A DNA stretch of 64,000 nt from Methylomonas rivi (GTDB lineage: Bacteria > Pseudomonadota > Gammaproteobacteria > Methylococcales > Methylomonadaceae), in NCBI RefSeq assembly GCF_024505165.1, contig NZ_JANIBK010000002.1, positions 1 to 64,000 of the forward strand, read 5' to 3'. Below, piece by piece: positions 38,214 through 39,153 of this stretch; the stretch's first letter is position 1; each line of letters starts with the position of its first letter. The notes under the pieces were generated by a model. That model made no database searches. It saw only the letters and a program-made list of their open reading frames with translations, and had not been told where the DNA came from. A program made the translations under genes and the position numbers.

Positions 38214-38242
38214 TTGCATGCTGCTTTTGGTCATGCTATAAA
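38214..38242 (+). promoter_or_regulatory. promoter of lipopeptide copy 1
   Basis: TTGCAT (38214-38219), 17 bases, TATAAA (38237-38242), about 60 bp before the ATG. Comparable elements precede copy 2 (TTTGCA near 38527, TATAAG at 38550) and copy 3 (TATAAA at 38882). Confidence 0.5.
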
Positions 38243-38303
38243 TTTTATGTGCTTAACTTAAGTGCACAAAATTATAAAAACCTTATTTTACTCGGAGGAT
38301 GTT

Positions 38304-38441
38304 ATGAAAAAAGTATTTTCTGTCTTAGCTATGGCGCTTATGATTGTCAGCTTGAGCGGTTGTATGGACGACCCTGATCAAGGCAATCCAAAACCAAAAA
38401 ACTACGGCACACCTAACCAAGTAGGCTCTGGCGTCAACTAA
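38304..38441 (+). CDS. small lipoprotein, tandem copy 1
   Basis: A 45-residue prolipoprotein: basic start MKK, hydrophobic core, lipobox LSGC with the acylated Cys at residue 20, then a 26-residue mature peptide CMDDPDQGNPKPKNYGTP plus a Gly/Ser/Asn end. GGAGG sits seven bases before the ATG. Asp at position +3 and Met at +2 after Cys do not match the classical inner-membrane retention signal (Asp at +2), so outer-membrane location is possible. Architecture recalls entericidins and colicin-lysis lipopeptides, but sequence similarity beyond the lipobox is not evident. Two more copies follow directly. Confidence 0.8.
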   Translation: MKKVFSVLAMALMIVSLSGCMDDPDQGNPKPKNYGTPNQVGSGVN

Positions 38442-38478
38442 GCAATAGCGTTGACAGGATTTCTCTTAAATCCTTTGT

Positions 38479-38500
38479 AAGGCCCACTTCCGTGGGCCTT
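38479..38500 (+). terminator. hairpin after lipopeptide copy 1
   Basis: AAGGCCCAC and GTGGGCCTT around a four-base loop, 38 bases past the stop. The same hairpin follows copy 2. The U-tract is poor. Confidence 0.65.
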
Positions 38501-38618
38501 ATGCCTTCCTCCAAGCCTATATTTATTTTGCAGCCAAGGCTTTCCGTGTTATAAGCCTTACCGTGCTTAATATATCTAGTACAAACAAAACTATAAAAAT
38601 ACCTATTTGGAGGATGTT

Positions 38619-38756
38619 ATGAAAAAAATATTATCTCTTTTAGCGATGAGTCTGATGCTTGTTAGTTTGAGCGGCTGCATGGACGACCCTGATCAAGGCA
38701 ATCCAAAACCAAAAAATTACGGCACGCCCAACCAAGTAGGCTCTGGAGTCAACTAA
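38619..38756 (+). CDS. small lipoprotein, tandem copy 2
   Basis: A 45-residue prolipoprotein whose mature 26 residues are identical to those of copy 1; only the signal peptide differs (MKKILSLLAMSLMLVSLSGC). The coding DNA differs from copy 1 mainly at third positions and in the signal region, showing a fairly recent duplication with selection on the mature peptide. The leader GGAGGATGTT-ATG is conserved exactly. The copy has its own promoter-like region and terminator hairpin. Confidence 0.8.
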   Translation: MKKILSLLAMSLMLVSLSGCMDDPDQGNPKPKNYGTPNQVGSGVN

Positions 38757-38797
38757 GTAGTAGCGCGCGTTGACAGGATTTGGTTTAAATCCATTGT

Positions 38798-38819
38798 AAG
38801 GCCCACATCCGTGGGCCTT
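38798..38819 (+). terminator. hairpin after lipopeptide copy 2
   Basis: Same AAGGCCCAC/GTGGGCCTT stem as after copy 1, loop ATCC. Confidence 0.65.
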
Positions 38820-38946
38820 ATGCGTTTAGGGCCTTTACCTTCAAAATTGCTTTTTTTTGGTACACGCGCGGTATTCCGTGTTATAAATAACAGTGCTTAA
38901 TATATTTAGTACAACCAAAAATAAAAAACTTAATTTGGAGGATGTT

Positions 38947-39066
38947 ATGAAAAAAGTATTATCTCTTTTAGCGATGACCCTGATGATTGTTGGCTTGAGC
39001 GGTTGCATGGATGATCCTGATGCGTCAAAACAAAAAGTTTCCAGCTCTACTTCAGTACAGCTGTAA
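38947..39066 (+). CDS. small lipoprotein, diverged tandem copy 3
   Basis: A 39-residue prolipoprotein sharing the leader GGAGGATGTT, the signal peptide with lipobox LSGC and the first mature residues CMDDPD with copies 1 and 2. It then departs completely (ASKQKVSSSTSVQL). The conserved GNPKPKNYG part is absent, so this copy is either specialised or decaying. Its downstream hairpin (near 39075-39105) is degraded compared with the other two. Confidence 0.75.
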   Translation: MKKVLSLLAMTLMIVGLSGCMDDPDASKQKVSSSTSVQL

Positions 39067-39153
39067 CTTTTAGACGTAAGGCTCATGCTCACCTAGGTGG
39101 GCCTTCTTATTTTTCATAATCCTCCTTTCAATACCCCCACTCGCGAAAACCGA

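Follow-up and report, generated by a model that had tools for sequence, protein, structure and literature searches.

A stretch of 64,000 nucleotides from Methylomonas rivi, called the window in the following, contains three short open reading frames in tandem on the forward strand. They encode prolipoproteins of 45, 45 and 39 amino acids with the lipobox LSGC in all three, and an earlier note had described them as amplified genes for a tiny secreted lipopeptide. The questions raised by this locus are what kind of genes these are, and whether their product works together with the membrane protein encoded upstream. The tandem trio was confirmed at the positions given in Table 1. From sequence comparison, the three genes belong to a real, widely conserved and apparently undescribed micro-lipoprotein family of Methylococcales.

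Table 1. Features of the lipopeptide locus, in positions of the window (GGCX, vitamin K-dependent gamma-carboxylase)
Feature	Position	Strand	Description
GGCX-like membrane protein, 635 aa	36285..38192	+	upstream neighbour; DCC1-like thiol-disulfide domain at residues 294-404
Promoter-like site, copy 1	38214..38242	+	TTGCAT - 17 - TATAAA, extended -10 (TGC); read from sequence
5' leader hairpin, copy 1	38248..38266	+	
Copy 1, A type	38304..38441	+	45-aa prolipoprotein, 26-aa mature part
3' hairpin, copy 1	38478..38501	+	palindrome, poor T run; not called as terminator
Promoter-like site, copy 2	38528..38555	+	TTGCAG - 16 - TATAAG, extended -10; sequence reading and alignment
5' leader hairpin, copy 2	38563..38582	+	GTGCT..AGTAC
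Copy 2, A type	38619..38756	+	45 aa; mature part equal to that of copy 1
3' hairpin, copy 2	38797..38820	+	palindrome, poor T run; not called as terminator
Extended -10, copy 3	38879..38887	+	TGTTATAAA; no clear -35; read from sequence
5' leader hairpin, copy 3	38893..38912	+	GTGCT..AGTAC
Copy 3, B type	38947..39066	+	39 aa, 20-aa mature part; form usual in other genera
3' hairpin, copy 3	39087..39105	+	followed by T-rich run

Over 162 nt, the DNA identity with copy 1 is 86% for copy 2 and 60% for copy 3. Consistent with the earlier description, copies 1 and 2 differ in the signal peptide and at synonymous sites and are identical in the mature part (C20-N45, 26 residues). The comparison of substitution types between copies, which had been proposed as a check, gave 5 synonymous and 0 nonsynonymous changes for this part (S=16.3, N=61.7 sites). 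By simple arithmetic, the chance of finding no nonsynonymous change among five random changes is about 0.0004. In the signal parts of the two copies, the counts are 6.7 synonymous and 6.3 nonsynonymous. Between genera, pN/pS is 0.26 for the signal and 0.22 for the core. These results support the proposal of a selected short acylated peptide, insofar as the product would be a real, selected and probably acylated envelope peptide. A whole-genome protein search recovered these three copies only; one profile search of the same genome (E<=0.1) counted four matches with the fourth unlisted, and the other searches gave three.

The family is recognized by its head, in which the lipid Cys is followed by roughly x-[DN]-x-P-D-G-[SD]-K-Q. 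Matches were found in 36 of 37 Methylomonas genomes and, by profile search over the bacterial family (E<=0.1), in 223 of 237 genomes and all 29 genera; among the high-quality genomes of the bacterial family, 7/173 had no match at this threshold. In a panel with one genome per genus, all 29 genomes matched at E<=1e-8. The search for homologues in Methylococcales, also proposed beforehand, gave matches in 269 of 311 genomes of the order (E<=0.01), and 23 of the 228 high-quality order genomes had none. Outside the bacterial family the scores are weak, yet 17 of the 20 genomes examined have a best match bearing the motif. These 17 best matches are lipoproteins of similar size with ..SPDGD[KSR]Q.. 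or a CLDDPN variant. The motif is absent from the other three (G254, G304 and G292), and the order-wide count at E<=0.01 therefore includes some false matches.

Of 369 genomes sampled across the class, only three (G000, G159 and G270), all from Methylococcales, contained the lipopeptide; a fourth Methylococcales genome in the sample, G254, was without it. At E<=1e-3, 22 of the 369 genomes matched, and the 19 from outside Methylococcales had E values of at least 3.4e-6, with matches in open frames 84-586 aa long. That the family extends more widely through the class was rejected, as 16 of the 20 loci in these 19 genomes encode ordinary longer lipoproteins; these 16 could be translated from a start close to the match, and L199, L212, L214 and L216 were left unparsed. 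Among the 16, the 422-aa lipoprotein of L203 agrees with the motif when this is taken loosely. For the three copies, no model of Pfam or NCBIfam scored above its cut-off. Even at E<=10, Pfam gave 0, 0 and 2 families for them, and both of the two are unrelated and below cut-off. A literature search, with supplements outside its reach, found no paper on the lipopeptide family. These searches agree with the earlier impression that no described family has this mature sequence.

The copies fall into an A form (copies 1 and 2) and a B form (copy 3). Copy 3 had been said to keep only CMDDPD. This is true locally and misleading in a wider frame: its tail (..SKQKVSSSTSVxL) recurs nearly unchanged within Methylomonas, and at the loci of other genera B-like forms are the rule. 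Decay of a duplicate was therefore rejected as the origin of copy 3. For the same reason, it is the A form that looks like a derivative, of Methylomonas type. At one locus (L071), the head is intermediate between A and B, CMDNPDGGNKKP.

The copy number varies between loci. In a pattern scan of 30 Methylomonas loci, an A gene is followed by a B gene about 330 nt later in 15 and the A-A-B arrangement is found in 2 (G000 and G013), with some of the remaining loci cut by contig ends. Methylomonas sp. SURF-2 (L059) has a single copy in its 12-kb locus, and by pattern one copy per locus is present in 64 of 81 loci of the bacterial family. The A-B, A-A-B, A-A and single-gene loci together indicate that amplification is local and is not the general state. 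The idea of gene amplification with selection on a short acylated peptide thus holds for the selection, as seen in the mature sequence that copies 1 and 2 share, but not for amplification as a general feature. In M. rivi, the A form would have been duplicated and the B form retained. Two loci (L070, 5597-6135, and L074, 4488-4930) carry two A-type genes and no B-type gene, which looks like a replacement of one form by the other. L116 and L131 contain tandem copies with similar heads (CMDxPDGSKQ) and very different tails, some of which end with NPYK.

Each copy has its own set of expression signals. The leader of each unit and the matching hairpins of the first two, pointed out in the earlier note, were found again; the leaders are alike in all three units, the 3' hairpins of copies 1 and 2 are near-identical, and that of copy 3 is related to them. 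A GGAGGA ribosome site precedes each of the three copies. A consensus scan of the window called none of the three promoters, and the sole terminator it called was the copy-3 hairpin. Within the lipopeptide family, the signals were examined in 106 genes that differ in their upstream regions. Of these genes, 83 have a sigma70-like site upstream (4.0 in shuffles, maximum 8) and an extended -10 in 77 (3.5 in shuffles, maximum 8), and a terminator-like hairpin follows 88 (5.0 in shuffles, maximum 7).

The leaders were compared after reducing 98 of them to 94 usable ones and 72 representatives. A hairpin just after the -10 was found in 67 of the 72, compared with 33.1 ± 3.5 (maximum 43) in controls with everything behind the first arm shuffled. 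This count is lowered because the pattern misplaced the -10 in some leaders (such as L107). The arms include GTGC..GCAC, GTGC..GTAC, GTGC..GCGC, GCGC..GTGC and GTAC..GTAC. The first 42 nt of the leader have a mean folding z of -1.78, with 50 of 72 below -1, and the remaining leader is unstructured (mean z +0.59, n=56). An mRNA that is stable and well translated would be expected to begin with a hairpin, followed by a spacer rich in A and T and a strong ribosome site. We infer that the lipopeptide is constitutive and abundant, the abundance being read solely from the promoter-like site and the leader. The gene after the lipopeptide varies between loci. Outside the bacterial family the lipopeptide gene occupies other places, with neighbours that, from their translations, are presumably rplU/obg, gshA and others, and no common partner was found among these neighbours. 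Among the ten genes with the highest expression in Methylomonas sp. DH-1, four code for hypothetical proteins, which are unnamed in the passages reporting them (PMC6373157).

The precursors have the features of a lipoprotein, with a Lys-bearing n-region, a hydrophobic stretch and a lipobox ending in Cys. Gly19-Cys20 is present in all 27 recovered members of the panel; A9, G16, L17 and G19 are invariant in 27/27 genera, and L12 and M13 are found in 26/27. Short lipoproteins of the LptM type served as the only control for conservation of the signal peptide. Across 19 genomes, each from another genus and with both genes parsed, the mean identity of the signal core between genera is 0.73 for the lipopeptide versus 0.31 for LptM, and the lipopeptide core is the more conserved one in 168 of 171 genome pairs. 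For the mature head the values are 0.78 for the lipopeptide versus 0.83 for LptM. Ten of the 29 panel genomes were left out of this comparison: six without LptM over the cut-off, two with unparsed LptM genes (G215 and G051) and two with lipopeptides missed by the start window (G186 and G145). The mature part has 20-26 residues here and 16-27 in relatives. By the Lol rule of E. coli, the residue after the lipid Cys governs sorting, and a residue other than Asp leads to the outer membrane. The lipopeptide has a residue other than Asp at this position and is therefore probably located in the outer membrane, on the side that faces the periplasm.

Several known small lipoproteins resemble the family in part. 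LptM (NF047847) is likewise a very short lipoprotein, and in it, too, the residues that directly follow the lipid Cys are conserved. In contrast to the 27.7-bit cut-off of this model, the three copies score 12.8, 11.7 and 12.3 bits, over positions 1-20 only, and their head is CMDDPD instead of CGxxGPLY. A true LptM (..ACGQTGPLYLP..) with 36.9 bits is encoded elsewhere in the genome (L220, G000:C188:1980-2057), and the lipopeptide as a replacement of LptM was rejected on account of this separate gene. Lpp, like the lipopeptide, is a small lipoprotein from a stand-alone gene. Its mature chain is a long coiled coil with a C-terminal Lys. In contrast, the short mature part of the lipopeptide has no room for a long heptad helix, and there is no conserved C-terminal Lys, the ends being VN, QL, SL and others. 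In one paper (PMC10260701), WP_009060351 of Methylacidiphilum fumariolicum SolV is presented as an abundant, highly expressed lipoprotein partly peculiar to a methanotroph group; it has 139 aa, compared with the 39-45-aa precursor here, and belongs to Verrucomicrobiota.

The reading that we favour, with somewhat better than even confidence, is a family of stand-alone micro-lipoprotein genes that is typical of Methylococcales and provides a constitutive housekeeping peptide of the envelope. On the sequence evidence, the lipopeptide is most likely a constitutive acylated envelope peptide. Each gene would act as its own unit, with an extended -10 promoter-like site, a leader hairpin at the likely 5' end, GGAGGA and usually a terminator-like hairpin. 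The precursor would be exported, acylated on Cys20 and cut before Cys20, as the invariant lipobox suggests, to give an acylated peptide of 20-26 residues in M. rivi. The working parts would be the conserved signal peptide and the head CxDxPDGSKQ next to the membrane, with the tail free to vary. With only 39-45 codons, a gene that persists in almost all genomes of the bacterial family and also in other Methylococcales, with a constant expression cassette, is likely to encode a basic part of the methanotroph envelope.

Three other explanations of the gene itself were weighed against this housekeeping peptide. The conservation of the signal peptide, both in its near-invariant residues and by comparison with the LptM signal core, would fit a hydrophobic leader that is itself the active part, cleaved or uncleaved, like peptide pheromones or single-helix membrane microproteins; pheromones derived from lipoproteins do exist. 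However, the head CxDxPDxSKQ is about equally conserved and the lipobox Cys is invariant, and efficient processing may explain the conservation, since abundant lipoproteins such as Lpp also have conserved signal peptides and LptM is the sole control. An active leader is thus considered quite improbable. Still less credence, very little in fact, is given to a toxic lipopeptide with dose-dependent action. Entericidins and colicin-lysis lipopeptides are short prolipoproteins too, and size, lipobox and the tandem copies of some species agree with such a role; the likeness was said in the earlier note to concern architecture and not sequence, and this agrees with the Pfam search, in which no family of this kind matched at E<=10. 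The single gene at most loci and its retention in nearly all genomes of the bacterial family also argue against a toxin. That the RNA is the main product, as a structured or dual-function small RNA, is just as remote. The frequent leader hairpin and the short transcript expected would suit it, but the purifying selection acts at codon level, the rest of the leader is without structure, and the window has no Rfam match at gathering thresholds.

The protein encoded upstream offers a possible partner. Against Pfam, it matches the DCC1-like domain only (PF04134, E 1.5e-18), and its sequence profile had no match in the PDB at E<=1. Its AF2 model (pLDDT 75.3, pTM 0.76) was compared with the PDB. In Foldseek, the first 15 matches are all GGCX (E<=3.6e-4, best E 2.9e-6), with 12-18% identity and TM of 0.34-0.41 by query length. 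In VIA, the first 16 rows are all GGCX with Z of 15.5-23.1, and the next row has 7.8; the match with Z 23.1 has an rmsd of 4.0 over 322 residues. Residues 1-550 of the model correspond to 44-435 of GGCX. The neighbour is therefore predicted, from its model, to adopt the fold of the vitamin K-dependent gamma-carboxylase. His176 is kept in 99 of 100 orthologues and Lys177 in 98 of 100. Placed by simple offset only (model 1 versus GGCX 44), Lys177 lies about two residues off Lys218 of GGCX, which we take to be the catalytic Lys of the human enzyme; the titles of PDB entries 9l6r and 9l6s name K217A and K218A in GGCX. The neighbour thus shares with GGCX the predicted fold and, judged by offset, may share a Lys near the expected place, and differs from it by the low identity and by the DCC1-like domain. 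GGCX-like relatives occur in 277 of the 311 order genomes, usually as a single copy. In the class sample of 369 genomes, full-length relatives were found in G000, G159 and G270 and, outside the order, in G483; G473 has a C-terminal piece, and eight further matches are partial only.

The two genes are often found together. At 69 of 81 loci, the GGCX-like gene lies directly upstream of the lipopeptide on the same strand with a median gap of 123 nt, and the gap is 90-140 nt in 64 of these 69. At seven informative loci the lipopeptide has no adjoining GGCX-like gene, at L137 this gene is on the other side of the lipopeptide, and four loci are uninformative because the contig begins there. Among the 311 genomes of the order, 264 have both genes, 13 the GGCX-like gene only, 5 the lipopeptide only and 29 neither. 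The five lipopeptide-only genomes are four assemblies of 63-80% completeness and G254, with its match without the motif. For the 74 genomes outside the bacterial family, the corresponding numbers are 47, 6, 1 (G254) and 20. No lipopeptide was found within 900 nt downstream at 30 GGCX-like loci outside the bacterial family, of which 29 have at least 1.2 kb of downstream sequence and one has 296 nt. Because the lipopeptide gene has its own conserved promoter-like site, which lies between the two genes, and its own terminator, and because unlinked cases exist, one operon with the upstream gene was rejected as a rule.

A functional link between the lipopeptide and the GGCX-like protein is plausible, and by co-distribution and adjacency this protein is the likeliest partner. 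A more specific proposal, which we regard as rather unlikely, is that the precursor is the natural substrate of the GGCX-like protein, docking on it by the signal sequence and being modified on the acidic head (Asp22, Asp25). The docking would resemble that of GGCX on a propeptide, and the modification would occur at the surface of the membrane, with acylation either still to come or already complete. In one paper, the propeptide-binding site of GGCX is suggested as the primary meeting place with substrates (PMC5343777). The adjacency with its narrow gap, the co-distribution that persists outside the bacterial family without adjacency, the GGCX fold of the neighbour (Z up to 23.1), the retained His176/Lys177 within about two residues of Lys217-Lys218 by offset and the unusually conserved signal peptide all speak for this substrate role. 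Against it, the lipopeptide gene is an independent transcription unit as a rule, the conserved acids are Asp and not Glu, and only Asp25 of the two is kept in most relatives outside the bacterial family. The lipopeptide genes at the seven loci without an adjoining partner, the 30 GGCX-like loci without a lipopeptide behind them, and the GGCX-like genes without a lipopeptide match in 13 of the 311 order genomes and in G483 also weigh against it. The co-distribution itself is confounded. Outside the bacterial family, 17 of the 20 joint absences come from G237-G253, of which at least seven belong to one genus of family f2, and shared ancestry may explain the co-occurrence where the genes are unlinked; inside it, linkage and incomplete assemblies confound the counts.

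In its fullest form, the proposal describes a minimal membrane-docked 'vitamin K-type' modification system of methanotrophs, in which the signal sequence would serve as the propeptide and an Asp of the CxDxPD head would be carboxylated or otherwise modified on an acylated peptide. This we consider unlikely. If true, it would show what a GGCX homologue of prokaryotes has as its natural substrate, and the link to the GGCX-like protein makes the question of the substrates of such homologues directly testable. As a separate observation, small exported-looking proteins (..NANDRVDRARQKANN..), which for L078 and L096 had no match in Pfam, stand beside the lipopeptide at three loci (L078, L096 and L106) that contain no GGCX-like gene.
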